Below the pieces are notes generated by a model that was not told where the DNA came from, did not search any database, and saw only the letters and a list, made by a program, of their open reading frames with translations. Positions 3,285 through 64,000 of a stretch of 64,000 bases of DNA are shown one piece after another. A program made the translations under genes and the position numbers. Source of the stretch: Halobacteria archaeon HArc-gm2 (lineage in GTDB: Archaea; Halobacteriota; Halobacteria; Halobacteriales; Haloarculaceae); assembly GCA_025517465.1 (NCBI GenBank), contig JAOPKE010000002.1, forward strand, positions 1-64,000, read 5' to 3'. Each line of letters starts with the position of its first letter. Position 1 is the stretch's first letter.

Positions 3285-4208
3285 TGGAGCGGCGGCCTCG
3301 TCGCGGCGGATGATCACCCGGTCCACGGCACGGGCGAGCACGTCCGCATGACAGAGCGGAGCGTCCTCGTGGCCGATTTCCTCAAGGCGGTGATACCAGC
3401 ACCCCAGGACTTTCCCGCGGACCTGCTCCACGAGCGTCTGGCGGTATTCAGGCTCGTTCTCCAGGAGCGTCAGCAGCTGATCCGTGAACAGCGCGACGAC
3501 CTCCTCCCGGCTCCCAAACTCGCCCAGTGGGTACGGGTTCCCCAGCCAGCCGTCCTCCCCGATCTCCGCGGTCAGGAGATCTTTCTCTCCGTTGTCGCCT
3601 CCGCGGCCAGCGTACACGTCCGCGGAGTCATGCTGGGTGTGTCCGACGTACGTCCAGCGCGGGTGTCCGTCCTCGTGCTCTGTCGGGAGGTTCAGCTCGT
3701 CCACGACAGCTGGGCGCTCCGGGCTCTCGTCCACGGAGACGGTCCTGGACGGCTCGCTGTCATCGTCCGTCGCCTGGGACGCCCGAGCGGACCCGGAGCC
3801 GTCCGCGGCGGCGCTGGCGTCCCTGGAGAGTTCCAGGGCGCGGTCCGCGGCCTCGAGGTCGTCAATGTGGACGGGGACCCAGCCGATCCCGGCCTCGCCC
3901 AGCTGGACGAGGACGCCCACCATGCGGGTGGAGTAGCCAGTGGCAGACGGGCCGCTCACCGTCTCTGGGACTAAAATCGCGTGTTTGTGACTCTCGTAGC
4001 CACGGGAGCGGAGCGTCTCCACGCCGGCGTCCTCAAGGACGGCCCGGAGCTCGTCGTCGGCTAGGCGAGCGACCGGGACGGCGATTTCTCCGCGACTGTG
4101 GCTGATCGGCTGGCCGGAGCCGGGACAGACGACCTCGCCCGTCTCCTCGTCGCGCTCGAGGGGACGGAGCGACGCCCACGCCTTCGCGCCAAAGTTCTCC
4201 AGGCTCAC
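3267..4208 (-). CDS. DUF4326 domain protein
   Basis: A 313-residue protein. The C-terminal about 110 residues match DUF4326: GWLGNPYPLGEF, then a helical part, then LGCWYHRLEE and the CHADVL motif. Family members are phage- and plasmid-associated proteins of unknown activity, with conserved W/C/H residues that could bind metal or a nucleotide. The N-terminal half has a CPGSGQPISHSRG segment and an acidic low-complexity linker (about residues 125-170). GTG start at 4208 is fixed by GGAGGTGA and a 6-nt spacer. It ends in GGEQA like its neighbours. Operon context is virus- or plasmid-like. Confidence 0.7.
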   Translation of the reverse strand: MSLENFGAKAWASLRPLERDEETGEVVCPGSGQPISHSRGEIAVPVARLADDELRAVLEDAGVETLRSRGYESHKHAILVPETVSGPSATGYSTRMVGVLVQLGEAGIGWVPVHIDDLEAADRALELSRDASAAADGSGSARASQATDDDSEPSRTVSVDESPERPAVVDELNLPTEHEDGHPRWTYVGHTQHDSADVYAGRGGDNGEKDLLTAEIGEDGWLGNPYPLGEFGSREEVVALFTDQLLTLLENEPEYRQTLVEQVRGKVLGCWYHRLEEIGHEDAPLCHADVLARAVDRVIIRRDEAAAPGGEQA

Positions 4209-4222
4209 GCCTGCTCACCTCC
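4205..4222 (-). promoter_or_regulatory. Translational-coupling junction (SD plus TGA/GTG overlap)
   Basis: Minus strand reads GGAGGTGAGCAGGCGTGA, identical to the junction at 2998-3015, and fixes the GTG start of the DUF4326 gene. Confidence 0.85.
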
Positions 4223-4606
4223 GTTACTGGGGCGGTAGAGGCGGGCGTTCGGGACTTTCGTCTGGCACTCCGGACAGAGGTTCTCGTGATTCCCGTCCGG
4301 CTGGAGGTAGACCTTCAGTTTGTCGGGCGTGACGACCTCGTGACAGCGGTCACATTTCGCCAGGCCGCCGTCCGCGGCGATCTCGCTCGAGGGCGCGATC
4401 GTCGTCCGGATCGCCTCCTGGACCTCCTCCGGCGACGGGCCACCGTCCCGGAGAGCTCCGAAAGGCGCGTATGCGGACCGAGCTGCACAGTTAGGGAGGT
4501 GGTCACTGGCTCCCTGCTGCTCTCGGAGCGGAAGGCCACAGAGAGAGCATCCGGTAGTCCGAATGTTCGCGTTCCTGTGGTCGTCAGGAGCGCGGATGAT
4601 CGTCAC
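4205..4606 (-). CDS. Double zinc-finger protein
   Basis: About 133 residues with two zinc-binding clusters: C-x2-C followed by H-x-x-x-C (CSLCGLPL... DHLPNC) and a later pair CDRCHE ... CPEC. Such proteins usually bind nucleic acid; function is otherwise unknown. A GTG at 4615 also opens the frame, but I prefer the GTG at 4606 because it overlaps an upstream TGA and has GGGGGTG at the same spacing as the other junctions of this operon. Ends in GGEQA. It is the first well-supported gene of the leftward operon. Confidence 0.65.
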   Translation of the reverse strand: MTIIRAPDDHRNANIRTTGCSLCGLPLREQQGASDHLPNCAARSAYAPFGALRDGGPSPEEVQEAIRTTIAPSSEIAADGGLAKCDRCHEVVTPDKLKVYLQPDGNHENLCPECQTKVPNARLYRPSNGGEQA

Positions 4607-4842
4607 GCCGACCACCCCCAGAACCAGGTGATAATTCGCGGGATCGCAGGACGACAGTGGCCCGTCTCGGGGGACGGGTTCAACTCCTGATTTTCCGCGC
4701 TTTGTTTCAGGACCTGCTCAGAGAGAATTGTCTCTCTACTCAGTGAGCAGTAGAAATACGGAGCCTTCGTTAGAAGGTTTGTTTCAGATGGACTCGTCGG
4801 GTAGTAGCTCTGGCTAATTTGGCCGTGTTGGGGCCGTAACAT
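4603..4842 (-). CDS. Possible leader ORF at the head of the operon
   Basis: A 79-residue frame whose stop (TGA 4603-4605) overlaps the preferred start of the zinc-finger gene exactly as in the rest of the operon. Its last residues WGWSA take the place of GEQA. Composition is not acidic and codon use is poor for a haloarchaeal protein, so the long form may be spurious; only the 3' end may be translated to couple the next gene. Confidence 0.3.
   Translation of the reverse strand: MLRPQHGQISQSYYPTSPSETNLLTKAPYFYCSLSRETILSEQVLKQSAENQELNPSPETGHCRPAIPRIITWFWGWSA
4715..4749. promoter_or_regulatory. Nested palindrome, candidate operator
   Basis: AGAGAGA (4720-4726) and TCTCTCT (4731-4737) form a perfect inverted repeat around ATTG, and TGCTCA (4715-4720) with TGAGCA (4744-4749) form an outer pair. 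It lies just upstream of the leftward operon and about 170 bp before the rightward hicB, where a repressor site would be expected. Function inferred. Confidence 0.45.
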
Positions 4843-4919
4843 ATCGAAATCGGAATACGAGCGCCGCTCTCGACCGAGCCCCGGAGTCTTCTTCTACCGG
4901 ACGCACGACCAACCACCAT

Positions 4920-5186
4920 ATGGTGAATTCCACGAGCCTGGAAGACGAGGTAGTGGACGAAGAGATTCACCTCACCCGAGAAGGTGACTGGTGGGTCGCC
5001 AAAGATGTCGAGACCGGCGTCGCGAGCCAGGGCGAGACCCGCGAAGAGGCCCTGGAGATGCTCGACGAAGCTGTCGCCCTCCACAAGGGAGAGATCGGTC
5101 GAGAGCCCACCGACGAGGATCTCGAAGAGTGGGGACTCGATCCCGACGAGACGGGGGATAAGGAACTCCCCGACTTCATGCAGTAA
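4920..5186 (+). CDS. hicB: HicB-family antitoxin, apparently without its toxin
   Basis: An 88-residue HicB-like protein. A strand-rich N-terminal part (HLTREGDWWVAKDVETGVASQG) and the motif TREEALEMLDEAVALHKGE are typical of haloarchaeal HicB, followed by the usual acidic tail ending ELPDFMQ. HicB antitoxins neutralise the mRNA-interferase HicA. A hicA gene normally follows directly, but only a 28-codon frame is present downstream. Start at ATG 4920 is the only reasonable one. It may act as an orphan regulator or be left over from a broken toxin-antitoxin pair. Confidence 0.75.
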   Translation: MVNSTSLEDEVVDEEIHLTREGDWWVAKDVETGVASQGETREEALEMLDEAVALHKGEIGREPTDEDLEEWGLDPDETGDKELPDFMQ

Positions 5187-5346: not shown

Positions 5347-6369
5347 TCAGATTTGCTCTAATTGCTTCTTGCGAACGGCCATTTTCTCGCGATTCGTCCG
5401 GACGTCGTAGTGCTCGTAGAGCACCTCCAGCGAGACGTCACAGCGCTCGCTGACGATCTCCGGTGAGACATCCTGGTTCAGGTGGTGGGTGATACTCCCG
5501 CGACGGATGCCGTGGGGAGAACGCGCCGACGGACACCTGCTCGGGTATCCGTCACTTCCGAGCGCATCACACGTCGACGGGTCGGATGGATCGGCCTCGT
5601 GTGGGCACCCACCGACGAGGCACGGTTGGGTGAGTTTGCTGACCCATTTGTAGATCGTGTCTCCGGTCGGCCGGCCGTGCATCGACGTGATGAGCGGTTC
5701 GCGCCCGTAATCGTCCGTCCGGTCGTACCGGTCGGGGTTGTCCAGGTAGTCGTCGATGACCTGGTAGTCGGTCGGGCCGAGGTAGACCCAGCGCTCGCCG
5801 TCCTCGCCGTTCTTGAGACGGGTGCCCTGGTCGATCCGGTGTTCGAGGACCAGCGCGTAATCGCTTTGACGGAGGTCGTCGACGTCGAGCGACCGGAGCG
5901 CCGACCGGCGCATCGCCGTCTTCCACAGGATGAGAAAGACGACGTGGTCCCGACTGGCGTAGTGGTGATCGTGGAGGTAGTCGAGAATCCGGTGGGCCCG
6001 CTCGGACGAGATGTGGACGTCGCGGCTTTCTGCGCCGTCCGGCAGCTCCGGAGCGTGGACCTGTTCGGCCAGTCCGTCTGGCACGCCTTCGATATCGGCC
6101 CAGTACCGGAGGGCCTCCCGAATCGTACTCAGTTGCTTCTGCAGCGTGATGGCGGCGATGTCTCTCCCTCGCCAGGAAACGAAGTCGGCGAGGTCGCGTC
6201 CGGTCAGGTCGTTGAGGTCGTCGATGCCGCGTTCCTGGCACCAGTCGTTGAAGAACCGGAGCCGAGTCTTCGCATTCCGGATCGTACTCTCCCGGACAGA
6301 GGGCTCGCGGTGTCGGATGAACCGCTCGATGCCTTCCTCGGGCGGAAGGGACTGCAGGTCGTCGCTCAT
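5347..6369 (-). CDS. Tyrosine recombinase / integrase
   Basis: A 340-residue XerC/D-type integrase. Residues about 10-105 are a SAM-like core-binding domain; the catalytic domain has Arg at about 154 (TAMRRSALRSL), H-x-x-R at 286-289 (SPHGIRR) and the nucleophile Tyr near 321 (LYEHYDVR). A four-cysteine insertion (about residues 250-279) before the HxxR box is probably a zinc knuckle, as seen in many haloarchaeal integrases. I choose ATG 6369, 4 nt after GGAGGT and overlapping the stop of the upstream 41-codon gene; the frame open further upstream is non-coding in character. It would integrate or excise the element containing the neighbouring viral-type genes. No attachment site was recognised. 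Confidence 0.9.
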   Translation of the reverse strand: MSDDLQSLPPEEGIERFIRHREPSVRESTIRNAKTRLRFFNDWCQERGIDDLNDLTGRDLADFVSWRGRDIAAITLQKQLSTIREALRYWADIEGVPDGLAEQVHAPELPDGAESRDVHISSERAHRILDYLHDHHYASRDHVVFLILWKTAMRRSALRSLDVDDLRQSDYALVLEHRIDQGTRLKNGEDGERWVYLGPTDYQVIDDYLDNPDRYDRTDDYGREPLITSMHGRPTGDTIYKWVSKLTQPCLVGGCPHEADPSDPSTCDALGSDGYPSRCPSARSPHGIRRGSITHHLNQDVSPEIVSERCDVSLEVLYEHYDVRTNREKMAVRKKQLEQI

Positions 6370-6491
6370 CGTGACCTCCGGGTAGCCTTCCGGTAGCAAC
6401 CGAGACAGAGCGACTCGCCCGGGTAGACGTCGCGCGTGCACCCGTCGGTCTCGCAGGTTTCGACCTCCTCGACGACGCGGTCGGAACTCAC
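6366..6491 (-). CDS. Tiny zinc-finger protein coupled to the integrase
   Basis: A 41-residue protein from GTG 6491 with a clean GGAGGTG upstream. Four cysteines (CETDGC ... CLGC) form a C-x4-C/C-x2-C zinc ribbon. The stop overlaps the integrase start (ATGA), so the two are translationally coupled. It may regulate or assist integration. Too short to be found by length-limited gene calls. Confidence 0.65.
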   Translation of the reverse strand: MSSDRVVEEVETCETDGCTRDVYPGESLCLGCYRKATRRSR

Positions 6492-6545
6492 GTGGCCCAC
6501 CTCCCGAGGGAAACCGTTGAGTGATCAAGTGGCGAACCAGCACCC

Positions 6546-6725
6546 ATGTTCCCCGAAGACGAGGACTGGCTGATCCGCCACTCGGAGGTTCGCGAGCGAG
6601 ACGGCGAGGCGGTCGTTACGATTCCCGACGAGGTCCTCGAATGCTCCGGCCTCGACCTGGGCGACCCCGTCGGGCTGTACACCCAAGACGGCGGGAACGT
6701 CGTCGTCGAAGCAGGGTCGAAGTAG
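6546..6725 (+). CDS. AbrB/SpoVT-type DNA-binding protein
   Basis: A 59-residue protein with the swapped-hairpin AbrB pattern: VVTIPDEVLECSGLDLGDPVGLY, i.e. a V-T-I-P strand, a helix, then L-G-D-x-V. Such proteins are small dimeric regulators or antitoxins. It is oriented opposite to the integrase operon and lies between it and another leftward mini-operon, so it could control either. ATG 6546 chosen because the AbrB domain begins shortly after it; no partner toxin is seen downstream. Confidence 0.65.
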   Translation: MFPEDEDWLIRHSEVRERDGEAVVTIPDEVLECSGLDLGDPVGLYTQDGGNVVVEAGSK

Positions 6726-6750
6726 TCGCCACGGATCAACGCGCCCCGCG

Positions 6751-6870
6751 TCATTCGTCTTCCCTCCGTTCGGCGAAGTGACGCTCTAGCCGACGACGCG
6801 CTTGCTCGATGAAGGGCTCCAGCTCTTGCTTGATCGCTTGCTTTTCCTCCTCCGTCGGGTCAGTGGGCAT
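6751..6870 (-). CDS. 39-residue helical peptide gene
   Basis: Starts at ATG 6870, overlapping the stop of the zinc-ribbon gene (TGATG). The product is one charged amphipathic helix (EEEKQAIKQELEPFIEQARRRLERHF). Function unknown; last gene of a three-gene coupled operon. Confidence 0.5.
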   Translation of the reverse strand: MPTDPTEEEKQAIKQELEPFIEQARRRLERHFAERREDE

Positions 6871-6971: not shown

Positions 6972-7231
6972 GCTCCCGTCCCTCCGTCGTGATCTACGTC
7001 ATATGGACCGTGCTCAGAGACGAGACGGACGTCCTCGCGGGCGTACATGCGCCCGTCGCGTTGATCGCGCAGTTGCTCGAACGAGCCGTCGGCGCCGTAG
7101 GCATTCGCACAGTTCGAACACCAGAAGTGGTGGTTCGTCGGTTCCCAGGACCTGTGCCCATTGGGGCAGGTAAACCGCCATCGGTCCAGCTTGGTTTCGA
7201 TTCGGACCGTCGTCTTCTCCGACATGGCCAT
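6968..7231 (-). CDS. Small zinc-finger protein, first gene of a mini-operon
   Basis: About 87 residues. A zinc-binding pattern FTCPNGH ... WCSNCAN (C-x3-H and C-x2-C) follows an N-terminal strand-rich segment. I choose ATG 7231 (or the in-frame ATG at 7225) because a TATA box at 7250-7257 places transcription start at or next to these codons, typical of leaderless haloarchaeal mRNAs. The frame open further upstream is AT-rich and non-coding. Stop overlaps the next gene. Confidence 0.65.
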   Translation of the reverse strand: MAMSEKTTVRIETKLDRWRFTCPNGHRSWEPTNHHFWCSNCANAYGADGSFEQLRDQRDGRMYAREDVRLVSEHGPYDVDHDGGTGA

Positions 7232-38417: not shown

Positions 38418-38714
38418 CGCTTAGAGATCACGAAACAATACTTCTAATTGGGACAAAATTACCAGAATACTACGAGCGCCGCTAAAGACCTGTGGTCGGG
38501 GGCTGTGGTTCTGTTGAAAGTTGATTCGAGTGCTTTGAGAATAGTCCATAACAGAATTCGATCCCATCATCAATTCACAACGATGACTGGTGCGGCCGGG
38601 AATAGAAAGGTTTCCACTATATCACTAATGGCCGGATCGATCAGGGACTGCCGACGATTATGGCCCTACCCTACATCTGGCAAATCCAAGCCATGCTAGT
38701 CATCGGTCTGAATT
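38418..38714. other. Gap with no gene recognised
   Basis: Upstream of the DUF4209 gene; low GC, no convincing reading frame. Probably promoter DNA for the leftward gene. Confidence 0.4.
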
Positions 38715-38973
38715 CTATTCTCCTAAAAAGTCCAAAAACCGCAGGACGTTACGGATTTGTACCGCGACCCCTTCCACGTCTTTCTCGAGCTCTTCAATGG
38801 CCCTTCCATTTCAATGATACGACCATTATCCTCTACGTAGTCTCAAGCATCCGCTCGTGTTGTTTTTCAATGCGTATGAGGAGTTCCTTGAGAGGTAACG
38901 TTTCAGGGTTATCGTCGTACTCGGCGGCGATGTAGGCACCAGCATCAGTAGTCACGGCCACGAATGGGGCCAT
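38715..38973 (-). pseudogene. Frameshifted small coiled-coil gene
   Basis: From ATG 38973 a 46-residue frame reads MAPFVAVTTDAGAYIAAEY ... RIEKQHERMLETT and stops at 38833. The second frame continues YVEDNGRIIEMEG, and the third continues AIEELEKDVEGVAVQIRNVL to a stop at 38715. Joined, they give one coherent about 86-residue acidic coiled-coil protein. Two frameshifts, near 38836 and 38795, are needed, so the gene is dead, or the sequence has local indel errors. Confidence 0.6.
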
Positions 38974-39312
38974 GTGTTATGACTCACCTCGCTCTTCCTC
39001 TCGGTGAGTCACGGGAAATTGATTCGTCAATTTGAGTCCTTTTAATAGGTAGTGAGCTAGAAGTTACTTCTGCTCAAAAGTTATATTTAATCAAAATGAT
39101 ACAACCCCTACGGAATTGTATTGGTAGAAAACAAATTGTCATGCTGTCGGTAGGTGGAGTATAGTAGTCAACAGTCCTACGAAGACGAGGATATATCTGG
39201 CCCGGTGGATTGTTGCCATTCGACGACAAAGACTGATTCGTCAAGCTGGCACAGGATACGGTTGAAATACATACGACCAAAAACCGGTCCCAATCACCCA
39301 CAGAATGTGAGC
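38974..39312. other. AT-rich gap with no gene recognised
   Basis: Contains AT-rich DNA (around 39060-39130) but no frame with coding character. Probably an old junction between the HEPN-like gene block and the HsdR-N operon. Confidence 0.4.
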
Positions 39313-41916: not shown

Positions 41917-42507
41917 CTACTCTTTGACCTCGTCAACGAGTTCCTGAGTGCGGGCATCGATTTGCTCGAAGCGCTGGTGTAGTTCTCGTGTCCGTTCATC
42001 CAGTTTCTTCAGCGCCGATTCGTGGTCGTCGACACGCTGCTCGAGATCGTCGAGCCGACTACCCATCTCCTCAACGACGTCGACTGCCTGGCTGTTGTCG
42101 TCGATATCCGCTCGCGCCTGTGTCAACCCCATCTCCAGATCCGCGATGTCGCGACGGGCATCGGCGAGATCGTCGGCCAGGTCGGACACTGTCTCGTCGT
42201 CGAACCCGGACGGCTGGCTGAGGTGGTCGAGAACGGCCTCGCCCTTCTCGGTCAGCCGGTACGTGTTCGGTGGTCGTCCAGGTTGGTCGTCGACGTCGAC
42301 GTCAGTCTCCTCCAGGAGTCCCTGGCTGACGAGACGCTCCCGTAGATAGTACGTCTCGTTTCCCGAGTACCCTGTCCGCTCCGTTATCGAACTGGTGGGA
42401 CAACCCTCTCCGGAGTGCAGTGACACCGCTCTGATAATTTCGCCAGCCTTCGCGTTCAGTCCGCGGGCGATGTCCTCAGGAGATCGGTCCTCGACGCCGG
42501 CACTCAT
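41917..42507 (-). CDS. Winged-helix regulator with a coiled-coil tail
   Basis: About 196 residues from ATG 42507. Residues about 15-90 are a winged helix (IIRAVSLHSGEGCPTSSI, YYLRERLVSQGLLEE, NTYRLTEKGEAVL). The remaining 100 residues are a regular coiled coil (DLADARRDIADLEMGL ... LDDLEQRVDDHE). Haloarchaeal plasmids often encode such regulators. An AT-rich box close to the start suggests a leaderless mRNA. Divergent from the repeat array. Confidence 0.65.
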   Translation of the reverse strand: MSAGVEDRSPEDIARGLNAKAGEIIRAVSLHSGEGCPTSSITERTGYSGNETYYLRERLVSQGLLEETDVDVDDQPGRPPNTYRLTEKGEAVLDHLSQPSGFDDETVSDLADDLADARRDIADLEMGLTQARADIDDNSQAVDVVEEMGSRLDDLEQRVDDHESALKKLDERTRELHQRFEQIDARTQELVDEVKE

Positions 42508-42556: not shown

Positions 42557-42566
42557 TTTAAAATTT
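42557..42566 (+). promoter_or_regulatory. TATA-like box facing the tandem repeat array
   Basis: TTTAAAATTT lies about 85 bp before the first repeat core. If used rightward it would produce a non-coding transcript across the array; it is symmetric, so leftward use is also possible. Confidence 0.35.
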
Positions 42567-42741
42567 GAAACGACAACTATAGTGCCCGGTCACCCGAGCA
42601 ATCCAGGCTTCGAGAGAACCATCGACGACCACCGAAAGCGACGTAGGGGTGTCCGACCTGGCGGCAGCACTCACGGAGAACCACACGGGTGGGAGACCTA
42701 TTGGAATCCGGAGAAGAGTCCAGAGAGAACCACTGCTCTGG

Positions 42742-42797
42742 GAGCGCGACCAGGGCGATGATGAGAGCGCGACCAGGGCGATGATGAGAGCGCGATT
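42742..42797 (+). repeat. 23-bp perfect tandem repeat
   Basis: The unit GAGCGCGACCAGGGCGATGA plus TGA (23 bp) occurs at 42742-42764 and 42765-42787, followed by a partial third copy. Identical copies imply recent expansion. Confidence 0.85.
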
Positions 42798-42906
42798 GGG
42801 GTGTCCGAGTTCGAGGCCAGGGGGCGTCACGTGCGCGTCTCCTGAGCGGGGACAAACGAGGGAGCGACCACGAGTCCGAAGCGAGTAGCAGAGGGATGCC
42901 CCTGAC

Positions 42907-42975
42907 GTCACGAAGCGGATGCCCACACCGTGACGAAACGAATACCCCGACAGTGACGAAGGGGATACCGACTTC
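42907..42975 (+). repeat. Three 23-bp imperfect tandem repeats
   Basis: Units begin GT(C/G)ACGAA at 42907, 42930 and 42953, each followed by a G-A-T-(G/A)-C-C-like core. Confidence 0.8.
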
Positions 42976-43511
42976 GTCGACGACGTCTGGATGCCAGTAC
43001 GCAGGTACCTGAATGGATGCCATCCTCAGCAAGTAATGCTGGATGTCTCCCTCAACGAGTGATGCTGGATGCCAAACGAGCGCGTCCGGTGAATGAGAGG
43101 TTAACCACGATTCTGGGGGATGCCCGAGGGCGAGAGTCACTCAGGATGCAGCTCGAAAGCGCCACACTGGACGACGCTATCTCACGATCACGAGGACACC
43201 CGAGCGTACGGCAACGGCAGTGACGGGAAGAGCAGTACAGAGGCCGGTGCGATCTCGACGACCAGGACAGCGCGGAAACGTGGGTCAGTCAGGCCTCACA
43301 ACAAAGCGAGAAGTGCAGCAAACGTCGTACTCCGGGGACACCCAGACGTCTACGAGCAACAACGGAGGACGCTACAGTCTCCGGTGGACACCCCATCTGC
43401 GGAGCGGCACTGACCTCCGACGGTCAGTACCAACTGGACACCCAGAGAGGCGTGACGACGGTAGTACGTCGAAACCGGCGCGATGGTGGACACCCAGTTC
43501 AGTTTCCGAAG

Positions 43512-43589
43512 GGGACACCCCAGTACGCTACCAGCGAGGGACACCCAAGTCTACTACCAGAGAGGGACACCCAAGAGATGGGCAACGCC
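43512..43589 (+). repeat. Three 26-bp imperfect tandem repeats
   Basis: GGGACACCC starts at 43512, 43538 and 43564, exactly 26 bp apart, with similar spacer sequence CTACCAG(C/A)GA between. Confidence 0.85.
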
Positions 43590-43806
43590 GCTGTGAGCGG
43601 GTTACGGAGTACCGGTGATGCATCAGCCGTCGAAAACCGACCAGCAGAGTGCGTCCGCGACCGACTGGGAAGCGACCGAGAGAGTGGAAGCCGGGGGGCT
43701 ACCCAAGCCAGAATGAGAGGCAAGGGAGACACGATGGTGGGCATCCCACGAGAGTGTTCCTCTGACGGCCTGCGATACGCGACAGTGGGCATCCATCAGA
43801 TATAGG

Positions 43807-44085
43807 CCCAGTGGTGCATCCGGTTGGTGCGACGTCCTAGAAGGGGGGTAACGGCGCTCTACCGTCACCGCGAGTTACGCCCGTGGGGGTGTCGAACTGG
43901 CGAAGCGTCCGTCGGAGGTTTCTCGAACTGGGTGTCCGGCAGTCGCGCCAGCGACGGATAATTGATTGCTGGTGGGCCTCGCTTGTATCCGCCGGTGGTA
44001 CGATCTGGTACGTGGTAATTGGCGTGGATACGCCCCTCTTCCACTCCCCGTTGGCTCTGGTGAAATCCTGAGCAGTGGTTCAGCA
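43807..44085. other. Gap with no gene recognised
   Basis: Contains further scattered GGGTGTCC-like words (for example 43930-43937) from the fading edge of the tandem array but no coding frame. Confidence 0.4.
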
Positions 44086-44116
44086 AAGCGCTCTCTTGGT
44101 CAATACAGGTAAGCTA
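44086..44116 (+). repeat. Cassette-type intergenic element E1 (weak)
   Basis: TTGGTCAATACAGG at 44096-44109 matches the conserved core of the dispersed element family (compare ATCGTTCAGTACAGG in E2). It precedes the first lipoprotein gene. Confidence 0.45.
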
Positions 44117-47204: not shown

Positions 47205-48251
47205 TTAGGCCGTGCATGGTTCTCCCTCCCGTTGGCGGATGTTCTCGGCGGCGTTCAGGTCGGCGTGGCGACCACGATCGCACTCGGGACACGAGAAGTG
47301 GTCACCGTCACGCGAGCCGGTGGCACCACACGCCGAACAGCGTTGGCTCGTCTCGAACGGGTCAACTGCTTCGACGCGAACCCCGGCTTTCTCGGCTTTG
47401 TAGACGATGAACTCCTGTAACTGGTGGAAGTGCCACGAGTGGACGCCACGCCAGTCGCTTCCTTCTCTGATGCCGTCCAGATCCTCGATTTTCAGGACTG
47501 GGTTCTCGAACTGTTTGGCCCAGTCGATGAGGCGACGGGAGGCATTGTGGTTCAAATCACGAATCCGGCGCTGCTCTTTGTTACCCACGCGGTTACGTGC
47601 GCGAAGCGCACCCGCTTTTTGAAGCGACTCGCGCAGGGAACGATATTTGCGCCGGACGTATTTCGCCTCACGACCGGACACCAGCATCGACTCGCCCGTT
47701 TCGACATCGGCGGCAAGCAGGTGGTTGTGGCCGATGTCCACGCCAATAGCTGTCTCGTCACCAGTTTCAGCCTGGTATTCGACGGTGAACGTACAGTACC
47801 AGTCATCGCCCCGGCGGTATACCTGCAATCGGGACTTGTCCGCCTCGCCGTCTATGAGGCGCGCAACGTCGTCGGCGATGTCGTCGTACACGTCGATGGG
47901 TGTGTACCACCACCCCGAGATGCAGGGAAAGCCGACGACGACAGAGCCGTTCTCCGTCCGGTCGATCTCCCAGTTCTGGTTGTTGACGGCGAACGGCTGG
48001 CTGGCGTGGTACTCCACGGTACCGTCCTTCTTGTAGTCGGACGTGGCTTCCCGGATGGCCTGATTCTGGATAGCTGAGTAGAGGTCGTTGTCAATGCTGG
48101 CCGTAGTCACGTTCATCCCGAAAGTGTCGGCTTCCCAGCCGTCGATGCAGAACTGCTTGGTGTCGCGGTACAGGTGGGTGGCGCGTTGCCACTCGCGACG
48201 CCGCTCTCGAGATGGATTGTGAAACGTCGTGGTGACGGCCGTTGTGACCAC
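47205..48251 (-). CDS. tnpB: TnpB RNA-guided nuclease
   Basis: A complete 348-residue TnpB. RuvC residues are Asp172 ([11 protein letters not shown]), Glu256 (LKIEDLDG) and Asp331 ([10 protein letters not shown]). The zinc finger is C305-x2-C308 and C321-x2-C324. All catalytic residues are present, so the nuclease may be active. It would use the downstream RNA to cut the empty donor site and promote retention of the element. Not accompanied by a TnpA transposase, so movement depends on one elsewhere. Confidence 0.9.
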
Positions 48252-48506: not shown

Positions 48507-49892
48507 ATGGAAAATGACGGAGTGAGCCGGCGGCGGGTGCTGCGAGCGAGCGTCGGGTCCGTCGGCGTCTGGGCACTGGTGTCCGGGTCGAGCCGTGCCG
48601 CGCGTGCCCAGTCCGCTGAGACGTGGTCTCAGTTCGGCTATAACGACGCGAACACGCGGCACGCGCCCGAGAACACGGGCCCCGTTACAGACATCTCCCA
48701 GCAATGGGCCGTCAAGATCGACGTCGGGATGCTCTCGTCGCCGGCAGTGGTCGACGGCACCGTCTACGGCGGGAGTGGCGACAGCGTATACGCGCTGGAT
48801 GCGGCCGACGGTGCCGAGCAGTGGGCCTTCGAAACCGGCGGGCGACTGTGGTCGTCGCCGGCAGTGGCCGACGGCACCGTCTACATCGGGAGCCACGACA
48901 AGAAGGTGTACGCGTTGGATGCGGCCGACGGCACCGAGCAGTGGGCGTTTGAGACAGGCAAGAGTGTGCGGTCGTCACCGGCAGTGGTGGACGGCACCGT
49001 CTACGTCGGGAGTCACGACAAGAACGTGTACGCGCTGAACGCCGCCGACGGCACCGAGCAGTGGACGTTTGAAACCGGGTTCTGGGTACGCTCCTCGCCA
49101 GCCGTGGCCGATGGCACCGTCTACGTCGGGAGTATTGATAATACGGTCTACGCGCTGGACGCCGCCGACGGCACCGAGCAGTGGGCGTTCGAAACCGGCA
49201 ACACAGTGATCTCGTCGCCGGCGGTGGCCGATGGCACCGTCTACGTCGGGAATTACGACAACAAGGTGTATGCGTTGGATGCGGCCGACGGCACCGAGCA
49301 GTGGGCGTTCGAGATGGGCCACTTCGTGTCTTCGTCGCCGGCAGTGGCCGACGGCACCGTCTACGTCGGGAATCCTGACAATAACGTGTACGCGCTGGAC
49401 GCCACCGACGGCACGAAGCAGTGGGCGTTCGAAACTGGCGAGGGGGTGGTTTCGTCGCCGGCAGTTGTCGACGGCACCGTCTACGTCGGGAGTCACGACA
49501 AGAAGGTGTACGCACTGGACGCCGCCGACGGCACCGAGCAGTGGGCGTTCGAGACTAGCGACGCAGTGAACCCGTCACCGGCAGTGGCCAACGGCACCGT
49601 CTACGTCGGGAGTAACGACGGGAACGTGTACGCAATAACCGGGGAAACACCGACGGCAACTGCCACAGCGACATCGGCTCACACACCGACAGAAACGTCC
49701 ACTGAGAGCCATGCAGGGAGCGAAACGGCTGAAACGACACGCCAGGGAACCGCGGCGACGACAAACAGCCAGCCCACGGACGACTCCGGGCCAGGGTTCG
49801 GGCTACTCAGCGCAGCGGCCGGCGCGGGGTTGGCCGGCCTCGCCAGGGCATTCTCGACGGACCCAGATACCGACGAGCGAACGCAGAACTGA
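48507..49892 (+). CDS. PQQ-repeat surface protein with near-identical blades
   Basis: A 461-residue exported protein. Tat signal SRRRVLRASVGSVGVWALVSG, then seven full 39-40-residue blades plus a partial eighth, each reading SSPAV(A/V)DGTVYVGS-x-D-(K/N)-x-VYALDAADGTEQWAFETG. A Thr/Ser/Glu-rich linker follows, then GPGFG and a hydrophobic segment, resembling the PGF-CTERM signal recognised by archaeosortase A, though a longer tail than usual follows it. It would be a beta-propeller on the cell surface. Blade identity at DNA level indicates recent repeat expansion. Confidence 0.8.
   Translation: MENDGVSRRRVLRASVGSVGVWALVSGSSRAARAQSAETWSQFGYNDANTRHAPENTGPVTDISQQWAVKIDVGMLSSPAVVDGTVYGGSGDSVYALDAADGAEQWAFETGGRLWSSPAVADGTVYIGSHDKKVYALDAADGTEQWAFETGKSVRSSPAVVDGTVYVGSHDKNVYALNAADGTEQWTFETGFWVRSSPAVADGTVYVGSIDNTVYALDAADGTEQWAFETGNTVISSPAVADGTVYVGNYDNKVYALDAADGTEQWAFEMGHFVSSSPAVADGTVYVGNPDNNVYALDATDGTKQWAFETGEGVVSSPAVVDGTVYVGSHDKKVYALDAADGTEQWAFETSDAVNPSPAVANGTVYVGSNDGNVYAITGETPTATATATSAHTPTETSTESHAGSETAETTRQGTAATTNSQPTDDSGPGFGLLSAAAGAGLAGLARAFSTDPDTDERTQN
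48735..49640 (+). repeat. 120-bp tandem repeats inside the propeller gene
   Basis: Units start near 48735 (117 bp), 48852, 48972, 49092, 49212, 49332 and 49452 (120 bp each), with a partial one from 49572. The segment GACGGCACCGTCTACGTCGG and neighbours recur almost unchanged, so copy number probably varies by recombination or slippage. Confidence 0.85.
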
Positions 49893-60063: not shown

Positions 60064-62959
60064 GAAATCAGTCGATTCGGCAGAGAGCGGCATCGAACAG
60101 CCATTCCCGGACTCGTGGACTGCTCGGTTCGTTCGAACGCTCCCGATGACGTCCGTGGACGACGTCGAGACGACGCTCGACAAGGTGGACGTACGTCGGG
60201 CGTTCCGTCGGCGGCAGGCCGTCGAGTCGGCAGACGGCGAGGCCGTGCTAGGCGCGGTGAAGGTCCGACCGGCGAGCAAGTCGATGGCCGACGACCTCGA
60301 GGACGAGATCCGTCACGTGGCGACGACGCTCACGTCCGAGATTTCGGGACGGGCACAGCTCGTCGACGTCCCGCGAAAGCTGGATCGGTCGAGTCGCCGG
60401 GATCGGTACCGGGCCCTCGCTGACGACCTGGCCCTGGATGAGTCCTGGTCGGCGAACGTCCTCGCCGACCTCGCCGAAGAGGAAGCCGCTGTGGAGAATC
60501 TCTACCAGGAGACGACGTCTACCTACGACCACTACGTCGTGCTCCGTGTGGACCGCCTGGAGGCCGCGCAATCGCTCTCCTCGGACGACGGCGGCCTGAC
60601 GAAGGTCCCCTACGTCGGGAAGGCCATCAAGGAGCGTCGCGTCGACAAGCTTCGGCACTCGGACGACCTGAAGAAGCTGATGGTGGAGCTGCTCGAAACT
60701 CGTCTGAACCGATTCGCCACCCAGCTGAGCTACATCGAGGGAATCGACGCGAACCCGATCAGCTCCGCCGAGTTCATCGAGGCCCTCGCGACCTACTACC
60801 GCTCGGACGTCCCCTCCCGGATCGACAACTTCCGGGCCCTGGTCCGGCAATCGCCGGTGCCGGGCGTCGGCACTGACGACACGGAGCCGACGGCCATGTA
60901 CGGGGCAAGTCACCCGACCGTCGACGACGACCGGGCACCGGAGACGCTCGCGACGATCGCCGAGGGTGAGGAACGCGCTCGGCAGGTACAGTCACTGGTC
61001 GCTCCGCGGGAGATACGTCCGGAGTCGGATGGGCACATCCAGGTCGGGAATCGGGCCGCTGCGACTCTCTCAGTCACGGGACTCCCTGAAGTCCCACCCC
61101 AGGCATACCTCGAACCGCTCTACCAGTACGACCGGCCAGAGGTGGAGATCACCGTCGCGACACACATCGAGCGAATCGAAGAGGAGACGGCCCGGAAGCA
61201 GGCGAAGAACCAGGAAAACTCCCTGAGCGACAAGCAAGAGTCGAAGATCGGTTCGGTCCTCGAAGAGACGCTCGAAGCCAAGCTGGAACAGGCCACGCAG
61301 TTCACGCAGTCCATAGAGCAGTCCGATTACGGCGTCTTCGACGTCGGTCTCTTCGTCACCGTCTCGGCGACCGCTGGCGTCGACGACTCCGGAACAGAGG
61401 TCCCCGCCGAGGAGGTCCTCGAATCCACGCTCAAGGACCTCCAGTCGACGATACTCAAAGAGCAGTGCGGGATCGATACGAACCGCCTCGACGGGATGCA
61501 GATGCAGGGCTGGCGAACGACTGCACCTGCCGCGGAGAACTACTTCGACACGAACGTCAAGATGCTCGCCAACGGTATCGCTCGCCAGTTCCCGTACCAG
61601 TACCGGAACCTGAAAGAGGAGACCGGCATCCGGCTGGGGCTGCACGAGTATCTCCGCGAGCCGCTGTATCTGGACGTCTTCGGCCGGGAGAACGGGTACA
61701 ACGGCGGCGTCTACGGGATGATCGGGTCGGGGAAGACCACGACGCTCCAGGACATCGCGACGAAGCTCTACCTCCAGCACGAACTCGACGACGAGCCGTT
61801 CAAGATGGTCCTCTCGACGCCGCTGCAGGATTTCGAGGGCCTGTGCGAGGCACTCGGTGGGAAACACATCGTCGTCGGTGGGGACACAGCCATCAACCCG
61901 CTCGAGATCCGCCACGTTCCCGCGTCGAAGTTGAAGATCGTCGGGCTCCAGACGCCCTGGAAGGACATGCTCGACCGGGCGATGGCGTTCCTCGAATCGT
62001 ACTACGACATGGAGGGCCTCGCCGGCTGGGGGAGCAAGAAAGGGACCTGGGAACGCGCGATCAAGGCCGCCCAGACGCGACAGGGGATCGAGCCCGGCGA
62101 GCCCGGAACCTACGAGAACGAGAGCGCGACGCTGCGGGACGCTATCTCCGTCCTGGAACAGATCGTGGAGGCACCTGACGCGTTCGAGACGGACGCGCTA
62201 ACGGGCGACGAGGAGACTCGCGAGAAGCGTCGGGAACAGGCCCGGCAGATCATCGCCCACGACATCGAGCCGTTCCGCGCGAACGGCCGCTTCGAACACT
62301 TCACCCGAACCTCCGACGTCGACCTCAAGCGTCACGACGTGGTCTACCTCGACTTCCAGCGCTACGAGTCCGACAAGCGCGCCGGCGGCCTGGAGATGCA
62401 GATGCGCCTCTCGGACCTGTACGAGCAGGCCAAATCCTTCGAGGGCGAGACGTTCTTCGCCGTCGACGAGTTCAACTACATGCTTCGCAATCCCCGAGCC
62501 AAGCAGTTCTTCAAGCAGACCCACCGGGCATCCCGGCACTGGGATCTGGCGGTCTGGCTCGCCACCCAGGAGATCAACGACCTCTTCGTCGAGAACGACG
62601 ACGGGCTCGGGCTCACCGACTCCGCCCGCGTGATCTTCAACAACCAGGCCATGCAGCTCTACCACTACACGAAGGAGATGAACGACCGGTGGGGCGACGT
62701 CCTCGACCTCTCGCAGCGCTCCCAGCACTTCGTCGACGACGCCCAGGTCGGCAAGAAGGAGGAAGGCTACTCCCAGGCGCTGCTCGTCGTCGACGAGGAC
62801 GAGTACCCACTCAGGGTGGAGATGAGCGACCACATGAACCCCCGACAGTTCTCGATCTACCAGTACGACCCGACGAAGGCCGACCACAGCGACGACTTCC
62901 GGGAGTTTCTCAGACAGTACGGTGATCGGGCCGACGTCTGCAACTGGAGGTGGGACTGA
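60056..62959 (+). CDS. VirB4-type conjugation ATPase
   Basis: A 967-residue VirB4/TraC-like ATPase. Walker A GMIGSGKTTTLQD near residue 554; Walker B FFAVDEFNYML near 801, followed by HRASRHWDLAVWLATQEINDLF, the typical VirB4 arginine/QE region. The N-terminal 500 residues form the VirB4 specific domain. It powers assembly or DNA transfer of the type IV secretion channel at the cytoplasmic membrane. Start overlaps VirB3; its stop overlaps the next gene (TGATG). Confidence 0.85.
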   Translation: MSEKSVDSAESGIEQPFPDSWTARFVRTLPMTSVDDVETTLDKVDVRRAFRRRQAVESADGEAVLGAVKVRPASKSMADDLEDEIRHVATTLTSEISGRAQLVDVPRKLDRSSRRDRYRALADDLALDESWSANVLADLAEEEAAVENLYQETTSTYDHYVVLRVDRLEAAQSLSSDDGGLTKVPYVGKAIKERRVDKLRHSDDLKKLMVELLETRLNRFATQLSYIEGIDANPISSAEFIEALATYYRSDVPSRIDNFRALVRQSPVPGVGTDDTEPTAMYGASHPTVDDDRAPETLATIAEGEERARQVQSLVAPREIRPESDGHIQVGNRAAATLSVTGLPEVPPQAYLEPLYQYDRPEVEITVATHIERIEEETARKQAKNQENSLSDKQESKIGSVLEETLEAKLEQATQFTQSIEQSDYGVFDVGLFVTVSATAGVDDSGTEVPAEEVLESTLKDLQSTILKEQCGIDTNRLDGMQMQGWRTTAPAAENYFDTNVKMLANGIARQFPYQYRNLKEETGIRLGLHEYLREPLYLDVFGRENGYNGGVYGMIGSGKTTTLQDIATKLYLQHELDDEPFKMVLSTPLQDFEGLCEALGGKHIVVGGDTAINPLEIRHVPASKLKIVGLQTPWKDMLDRAMAFLESYYDMEGLAGWGSKKGTWERAIKAAQTRQGIEPGEPGTYENESATLRDAISVLEQIVEAPDAFETDALTGDEETREKRREQARQIIAHDIEPFRANGRFEHFTRTSDVDLKRHDVVYLDFQRYESDKRAGGLEMQMRLSDLYEQAKSFEGETFFAVDEFNYMLRNPRAKQFFKQTHRASRHWDLAVWLATQEINDLFVENDDGLGLTDSARVIFNNQAMQLYHYTKEMNDRWGDVLDLSQRSQHFVDDAQVGKKEEGYSQALLVVDEDEYPLRVEMSDHMNPRQFSIYQYDPTKADHSDDFREFLRQYGDRADVCNWRWD

Positions 62960-64000
62960 TGGGGCTGCGAAACGCCCTCTCTTTCGGTTCGTCGGGGAAC
63001 GACGGTCCCGGTACGCCGAACTCGATCGAAGTAGGTCAGGACCTCGTCGACGACCTCCGGGAGCGCGTCGAGGCGGCCGGTCCGGTCGTCCACCTGACCC
63101 CGTACAAGCGCGACCGCAATCACGACACCAGCCGGTCGTTCTTCCGGGGCGTCCACCGCGTTCGCCGTGGTGGGCCCAAACGGAGAGAGAACGTCTCCTC
63201 GCCGTTCACGTTCGAGATTCACTACGACGGCAGCGAGGGGACGATCGGCTTCCGCTACGTCGCCGACGAGGACGTCCTCCGGAGCGAGATTCGCCAGGAG
63301 ATCGAATCCTGCTACCACGATAGCGACGTGACCCGAAGTCCGCCCACGTTCGTCGACGTCGACGAAGGCGACTACGCCTCCGCGGCGTGGCTCACGCTAC
63401 GACATCCAGAGCCGCTCCGTCCGGTCAACAATCCGGGCCTCAACCCGAGTGACTTCCACCCCGACCCCTACGATTCGATCACGAGCAGAATGGTCGGCGA
63501 CGGGAGCCGGTCGGCCTCGGTCGTGACCCAGCTTGTGTTCAAGCCCGCAATCTCCCACGCTGACCAGGACTCGCTGAACTGGCACGACGGGGTCGACGAG
63601 GTCGCCAAGCGGATGAAAGAGCCCAACGAGGGGTTCCGGTGGCAAAGCATTCTCACGGTGGTCGCGAACACCTTCGTCGAGAAAGACCTGGACGTGAAAG
63701 CGACGCAGGAGGGGTACCTCTCCTCCGAGGACAAGGAGGCGGCGAACGTCATCGCGAACCAGCGCAACCGGAAAGGGTTCCACGTCATCATCCGCGTCGT
63801 CGCGATCGCCGACGAACCCGAGCTGGCCGAACGGCGAGTAGCGTCGACGTGCGAGAAGTACAGGAACTACTACAACTCCACCCACGGCCAGGGGTTCAAG
63901 CCGGTCTTCGACGTCGACGTCGGCGAGGTCCTCTCGAACGCCGCTCGTCGGAAGTGGATCGACCGGGAGATGCCCATGTCGCTCGACGAGGCCGTGGCGC
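62959..64000 (+). CDS. Conjugation-locus protein, cut by the window end
   Basis: Starts at ATG 62959 overlapping the VirB4 stop and stays open to the last base (347 codons seen). The N-terminal part includes VEAAGPVVHLTPYKRDRN, FEIHYDGSEGTIGFRYVADEDV and a domain rich in strands, then EKDLDVKATQEGYLSSED. No ATPase motif appears in the visible part. Position suggests a type IV secretion or coupling component, but the family cannot be fixed. Confidence 0.65.
   Translation, partial: MGLRNALSFGSSGNDGPGTPNSIEVGQDLVDDLRERVEAAGPVVHLTPYKRDRNHDTSRSFFRGVHRVRRGGPKRRENVSSPFTFEIHYDGSEGTIGFRYVADEDVLRSEIRQEIESCYHDSDVTRSPPTFVDVDEGDYASAAWLTLRHPEPLRPVNNPGLNPSDFHPDPYDSITSRMVGDGSRSASVVTQLVFKPAISHADQDSLNWHDGVDEVAKRMKEPNEGFRWQSILTVVANTFVEKDLDVKATQEGYLSSEDKEAANVIANQRNRKGFHVIIRVVAIADEPELAERRVASTCEKYRNYYNSTHGQGFKPVFDVDVGEVLSNAARRKWIDREMPMSLDEAVA

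Follow-up and report, generated by a model that had tools for sequence, protein, structure and literature searches.

A register-spaced repeat array beside a winged-helix/coiled-coil gene in haloarchaea: a candidate DNA site of a conjugative module

Between positions 42645 and 43806 of the 64,000-nucleotide stretch of Halobacteria archaeon HArc-gm2 analysed here (the window), short motifs recur at near-regular intervals, raising the question of what such an array is and which function it might serve. Three readings had been offered in an earlier note on this DNA, namely a protein-binding array, a partition site and a transcribed repeat RNA. The first fits best, although none of them is singled out firmly.

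A non-coding array of short cores

On the forward strand of 42645-43806 the motif GGAYRCC occurs 15 times, against 0.76 expected from dinucleotide shuffles (maximum 6 in 2000), and the opposite strand carries four copies. With the pattern GGAYRYC, 16 cores are found, at 42894, 42917, 42963, 42989, 43015, 43041, 43067, 43118, 43194, 43336, 43386, 43436, 43488, 43513, 43539 and 43565. When core-to-core distances of up to 110 bp are considered, 24 of 33 fall within 1.3 bp of multiples of 25.7 bp, compared to 9% under the null, and none of 5000 random placements reached an equally high value, for a period picked post hoc after inspection of the array. The recurrence of 6-mers peaks at lags of 23, 26 and 52 (32, 28 and 16 respectively, versus 0.2-0.5 in shuffles). 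The GGA(T/C)(G/A)CC core in steps of 23, 25 and 26 bp, as first described from the letters, is therefore real. Plain base-by-base autocorrelation, in contrast, was not significant (best z 3.3, with null maxima averaging 2.7 and reaching 4.2), which indicates that the repeat sits in the cores and not in the whole unit. Since only the cores are in register, the autocorrelation test by which the earlier note proposed to judge the periodicity would, if taken literally, wrongly reject the array.

The array can be divided into four parts. At the left edge (42648-42806, minus strand), inverted GGTGTCC motifs at 42648-42654 and 42800-42806 surround a 23-bp unit which is tandemly duplicated with 100% identity (42742-42795). 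The first phase (42894-43124, plus strand) is made of GGATGCC and GGATACC cores in steps of 23, 26 and 51 bp, including 26-bp units at 43014-43074 which derive from local, recent duplication. The second phase (43194-43572, plus strand) consists of GGACACCC cores in steps of 25, 26, 50 and 52 bp, and its first core is followed by a 142-bp gap (43194-43336) that breaks the register. The right edge (43740-43794, minus strand) carries inverted GGCATCC motifs at 43740 and 43788. The drift from GGATGCC and GGATACC in the first half to GGACACCC in the second, the inverted cores at both edges and the perfectly duplicated subunit had all been noticed beforehand, and each was recovered.

The array in the window is genuine and non-coding. 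Its open reading frames appear to be due to chance, as they lack the low second-position GC that three out of five tested neighbour genes show, and a degenerate coding repeat was rejected because the 23/25/26-bp steps break the frame and codon-position GC is flat. A CRISPR array was likewise discarded, given that the recurring part is a 7-8 bp core only, and not a near-identical repeat of about 25-40 bp alternating with unique spacers. Possible spacer origins did not hold either: a 29-bp plasmid match and a 50-bp match to the organism's own genome fall in unrelated genes, the former being a chance match. The absence of a coding frame and of CRISPR-like spacers, both asserted earlier, thus stands. 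DNA matches of the array with E < 0.01 were returned in 12 of 59 genomes, and such E-values are too optimistic for this sequence. Mini-hairpins (GGG-NNN-CCC with paired flanks) numbered 30 versus 21 +/- 5 for loops of 3 and 34 versus 21 +/- 4 for loops of 4; the idea was dropped since similar levels are reached elsewhere in the window.

The divergent gene and its relatives

Some 60 bp separate the array region from the start of P0001, a divergently oriented open reading frame of 196 aa (41917-42507, minus strand). Structure prediction (mean pLDDT 80.9) yields helices at residues 19-29, 38-45 and 49-61, strands at 65-67 and 82-85 and then a helix spanning 104-195, so the product is modelled as a probable DNA-binding winged helix joined to a helix of 92 residues, with residues 49-61 taken as the recognition helix. 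MarR-family regulators are the nearest solved folds to this predicted structure. Pfam and NCBIfam return only weak helix-turn-helix (HTH) and coiled-coil matches for the protein, and a KfrA family match is absent from both; an N-terminal HTH followed by a long C-terminal helix is nevertheless the predicted arrangement, as in KfrA-like HTH/coiled-coil proteins. The earlier note had placed the array next to a cassette region on its right, a tie which gives way to one with this gene on the left and with conjugation genes of the same contig.

At the DNA level, no relatives of the array were found in 59 related genomes, in plasmids or in phages, and the proposed search of other haloarchaea for the GGACACCC register did not find the array family. 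A three-core pattern scanned across 391 genomes was rejected as a probe, most of what it matched being repeats within coding sequence or simple minisatellites. P0001 as a query gave no match in genome contigs, plasmids and phages, and an alignment of its relatives gave none among viral contigs. Against 391 haloarchaeal genomes, P0001 alone retrieved distant homologues (E 2e-9 to 3e-7), with only 24-31% similarity between it and the proteins of Natronococcus. The homologue set was enlarged by a profile search and by named records (Natronococcus spp. and Saliphagus infecundisoli), and additional searches brought in more distant loci in G265, G269, G442, G450, G281 and G090.

Distant homologues in Natronococcus, Saliphagus and other haloarchaea, from about five families, are accompanied by a non-coding array in the same divergent position, and these arrays are mostly purine-rich. 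Their cores are specific to the lineage: GGACTATC; GGACAGTC then GGGTGCC; GGGAGTC then GGGGGCC; GGGTGTC then GACACCC. The Natronococcus array uses GTGGACTATCA, while genome G319 has a TACC-type core and G450 has GGGGGTC. The arrays of G265, G269 and G442 share GGACAGTC cores, which in G265 and G442 are followed by a GGGTGCC tail. G090 holds two arrays, one running from GGGACAGTC to GGGTGCC and the other from GGGAGTC to GGGGGCC. The array of G281 contains GGGTGTCC, GGGTATCC and GGACACCC; its cores of the window type are GGTGTCC, GGTATCC and GGACACCC, and the 11-mer GGTGGACACCC is common to it and the window. Although the cores are unrelated, a register of ~25-26 / ~51-53 bp is preserved, and the distances between consecutive cores in the clear arrays cluster at 24-28 and 47-55 bp.

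A repeated-7-mer statistic reaches z = 10 for the window; most other arrays score 4-15, and most array-less homologues less than 2.5. It is imperfect in both directions: L055, L057, L064 and L074 bear arrays by eye at z of only 1.5-3.1, and at L114, L079, L084 and L056 no array was recognised at z of 3.5-4.8. Array calls at the remoter loci were made partly by eye, and the Natronococcus sequences are related, so that counts overstate their independence. Within this broad protein family, several homologues have no array. In two loci of G222 (L050 and L051), about 77-79 bp of leader upstream of the HTH gene is duplicated across N, probably an assembly artefact. The array family is visible only via the neighbouring protein: DNA searches miss it because lineages differ in the sequence of the core and agree in its spacing. 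A limited literature search found no description of it.

The island and linked conjugation genes

The end of the array coincides with the resumption of similarity to the congener G006. Positions 7128-7178 and 43828-44112 of the window match adjacent stretches of G006:C2 that lie five bases apart, which indicates that a segment of about 36.6 kb (7179-43827), containing defence-type genes, P0001 and the array, is absent there, its flanks being joined. To the left of the segment lies a gene for a tyrosine recombinase of the phage integrase family (5347-6543, minus strand; Pfam PF02899 and PF00589).

Positions 7179-41800 are rich in defence-type genes, among them TcmP (8045), radical SAM proteins (9293 and 10693), a McrB/McrC-like pair (14887 and 16131), a DUF499 ATPase (18304), a DUF262-like protein (23518), a DUF1156-type methylase (26448), a DrmD-like helicase (32947) and an HsdR_N protein (40240); about 0.9 kb of the island (38418-39312) is without a convincing ORF. 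To the right of the island, a TnpB-like (IS605 OrfB/Cas12f-like) gene occupies 47205-48251, and a PQQ beta-propeller gene consisting of 7.6 copies of a 120-bp unit (80% matches) occupies 48507-49892. In the congener, G006:C4:68881-69132 (L016 8850-9106) holds a C-terminal fragment of a P0001 homologue with 87.5% DNA identity over 257 bp, where both the winged helix and the array are missing.

Further along the contig, a VirB4-like conjugation ATPase gene (60968-62953, plus strand) was detected by tblastn with a protein of G163 (E 6e-85) that itself matches VirB4 models. It is followed at 63070-63990 (plus strand) by a homologue (E 3e-20), whose gene runs beyond the window, of a protein of about 352 aa which in related modules is encoded between VirB4 and the coupling ATPase. 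The coupling ATPase gene itself lies downstream of this homologue, at contig positions 64308-66941 (E 2.5e-70). The same kinds of genes, i.e. XerC/D, HerA, VirB4 and TraG/TraD/VirD4, are carried by fusexin-bearing archaeal mobile elements (PMC9259645). On the window contig the array is 17-23 kb away from the VirB4-like and coupling ATPase genes, a distance that counts against a conjugative site.

In five other genomes (G265, G269, G442, G281 and G090), the HTH gene directly adjoins a gene for a TraD/VirD4-like coupling ATPase. In an independent scan that took as its query the coupling ATPase encoded on the element of G281, 103 of 381 genomes gave a match, and 3 of the 20 further loci inspected (G175, G174 and G138) had a similar array beyond an HTH gene, most of the others having no such array. 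In G174, GGGTGTC cores are followed by GACACCC cores, and it is the GACACCC cores that stand in steps of 93, 24, 51, 53 and 24 bp. Conjugation genes are linked to the gene-plus-array layout in a good share of cases. At several Natronococcus loci no conjugation gene was found in the stretch examined, and since several loci stop within a few kb this is not evidence of absence.

Repeats of other kinds also occur near coupling ATPase genes. Compact 4-copy iterons (TGTTCAGGGTAAA; CTGTCCACGCA) stand between a coupling ATPase gene and a primase-like ORF in another clade (L167 of G283 at 6600-6800, L169 of G191 and L161 of G139), and we treated them as a separate, origin-like class. Tandem GATTGGGTGAGTCGTCGAGTG repeats lie near another coupling ATPase gene (L154 of G280, around 3700-4950), and their kinship to the arrays is uncertain.

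Candidate roles and known systems

We propose, with a probability of about one half and largely by analogy, that the array belongs to a haloarchaeal conjugative module as a cis-acting nucleoprotein site, which the neighbouring protein would bind and which would serve either DNA transfer, as with TraM at oriT, or maintenance, as with KfrA or a centromere. P0001, which would be a dimer by analogy with MarR proteins, may bind the short GG..C cores. With sites separated by 26 bp (2.5 helical turns) and 52 bp (5 turns), its long helices could bundle into one ordered complex. Through this complex the array DNA could be presented to a TraD/VirD4-like coupling ATPase, to be processed and transferred, as with TraM of F bound at sbm; alternatively, the complex could help to maintain the element, as KfrA does. 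It is the linkage to the coupling ATPase that suggests a role of the TraM-at-oriT or of the KfrA/KfrC type; a function in transfer, in preference to partition or regulation, is tentatively inferred.

A partition centromere, in which the winged-helix/coiled-coil protein would bind as an adaptor and the complex would be moved by an ATPase of the ParA type, whether its gene lies nearby or at another place, is rather unlikely. It would agree with a ParA-family gene just past the array in G324, a ParA-like ORF near a remote HTH homologue in G255, Orc1/Cdc6 or TBP genes close by in some loci, and the assistance that KfrA-type HTH/coiled-coil proteins lend to plasmid segregation (PMC8124265). However, a scan for ParA motifs was positive in just 1 of 35 loci (short stretches), no motor of the ParA, ParM or TubZ type was seen among the window genes examined, and adjacency to the coupling ATPase is commoner in the sample than adjacency to ParA.

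Equally doubtful is a long, purine-rich non-coding RNA transcribed from a leader promoter, whose cores would titrate a protein or regulate the module. Between P0001 and the array, the window holds an A+T-rich TTTAAAATTT (42557-42566), a possible promoter element, and a leader motif CGACAACTATAG (42571-42582, plus strand; a post hoc pattern) 64 bp from the start of P0001. The corresponding CG[AT]C-N-TAG motif is found at a distance of 62-64 bp from the gene start, both in the window and at most Natronococcus loci. Within 220 bp this pattern, chosen post hoc, marks a TATA-like leader in 19 of 23 array-bearing versus 4 of 21 array-less homologues. A leader common to the window and Natronococcus is only suggestive, because the expression was defined once the sequences had been inspected, and the window leader is missed by a profile built on that of the Natronococcus type. 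TBP paralogues with 87-89% mutual identity are encoded near the HTH gene and array in several Natronococcus-type loci, at L058 (8274-8846), L098 (7851-8408), L102 (5160-5720) and L104 (6378-6938), and might serve the array promoter.

On the strand that leads away from the gene, array-bearing loci mostly have a purine content of 0.54-0.65, versus about 0.42-0.54 in most array-less homologues. The consensus fold of 11 Natronococcus arrays is better than column shuffles on the array strand only (z -3.7, versus -1.5 on the other strand), with a closing stem joining the leader to the 3' end, U-A/A-U and C-G/U-A changes in a 5' hairpin and A-U/G-C changes in a 3' hairpin. Double-change cells number 13 versus 6.6 +/- 1.9 in shuffles, while pairs with double changes are only 5 versus 4.1, and such controls overstate covariation in related sequences, where kinship can yield similar counts. 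Against an RNA also stand the single-sequence folding energies, near those of shuffles in most arrays (z -1.5 in the window), and the lack of any Rfam match in the window. Support for a conserved, covarying structure is moderate in the Natronococcus set and absent for the window sequence. The purine excess on one strand and the Natronococcus covarying pairs are, in turn, unexplained by DNA binding and count against reading the array as a DNA site.

Replication-origin iterons of the element are a far less probable explanation: short direct repeats do lie beside a DNA-binding gene on plasmid-like contigs, with Orc1/Cdc6 near one locus (G443), but next to the array of the window no gene for Rep or Orc1/Cdc6 was identified, and the compact 4-copy iterons that other haloarchaeal modules carry by primase-like genes are shorter and less degenerate than the arrays. 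A functionless minisatellite in decay, to which the recent local duplications of the 23-bp unit at 42742 and the 26-bp units at 43014-43074 might point, is the least probable reading, as core and register were kept while the linkers diverged and the same register with unrelated cores stands beside homologues of one gene in about five families.

A conjugative site remains our preferred reading, and the array does share its element with genes for a VirB4-like protein and a coupling ATPase, as an oriT would. Archaeal conjugative plasmids have no recognisable relaxase and their mechanism of conjugation is little studied (PMC9905601), very few relaxases having been found in archaea (PMC3158045); a cis-acting transfer site may consequently look unfamiliar there. 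That two-phase 26/52-bp arrays and their winged-helix/coiled-coil protein form the missing recognition site of haloarchaeal conjugation, i.e. a relaxase-free transfer origin at which an ordered coiled-coil complex loads the coupling ATPase, is a speculative and rather improbable extension. Since such plasmids lack a recognised relaxase, and since the site recurs beside a DNA-binding gene and often next to a coupling ATPase gene, the array family is a concrete candidate for the DNA site recognised by archaeal conjugation machines, and offers a testable lead.

Among known systems, sponge RNAs of the CsrB/RsmZ type carry many regularly spaced GGA motifs on one strand. The array shares these features, but lacks an Rfam match and a strong fold, and no CsrA is known in archaea. 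In the plasmid centromeres sopC and parC, regularly spaced repeats adjoin the gene of the binding protein, as those of the array adjoin the gene of a candidate binding protein; the cores here, unlike theirs, fall into two types, are short and degenerate, and for the most part have no ParA gene next to them. The array resembles the TraM/sbm sites at the oriT of F in its repeated candidate protein sites on a conjugative element, and in F, TraM also contacts the coupling ATPase TraD (PMC12117103). The F oriT differs in having three sbm sites in a compact arrangement and a known relaxase, compared to about 16 cores of two types over 0.7 kb in the array. TraM is not known to be a winged-helix protein, nor is KfrA known to use a register-spaced array of about 0.7 kb. 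P0001 is nonetheless similar to KfrA of RK2 and RA3 in being a predicted coiled-coil-containing DNA-binding protein on a conjugative element, and the KfrA partner KfrC contacts both VirD4 and the partition protein KorB, linking plasmid segregation with VirD4 (PMC8124265).
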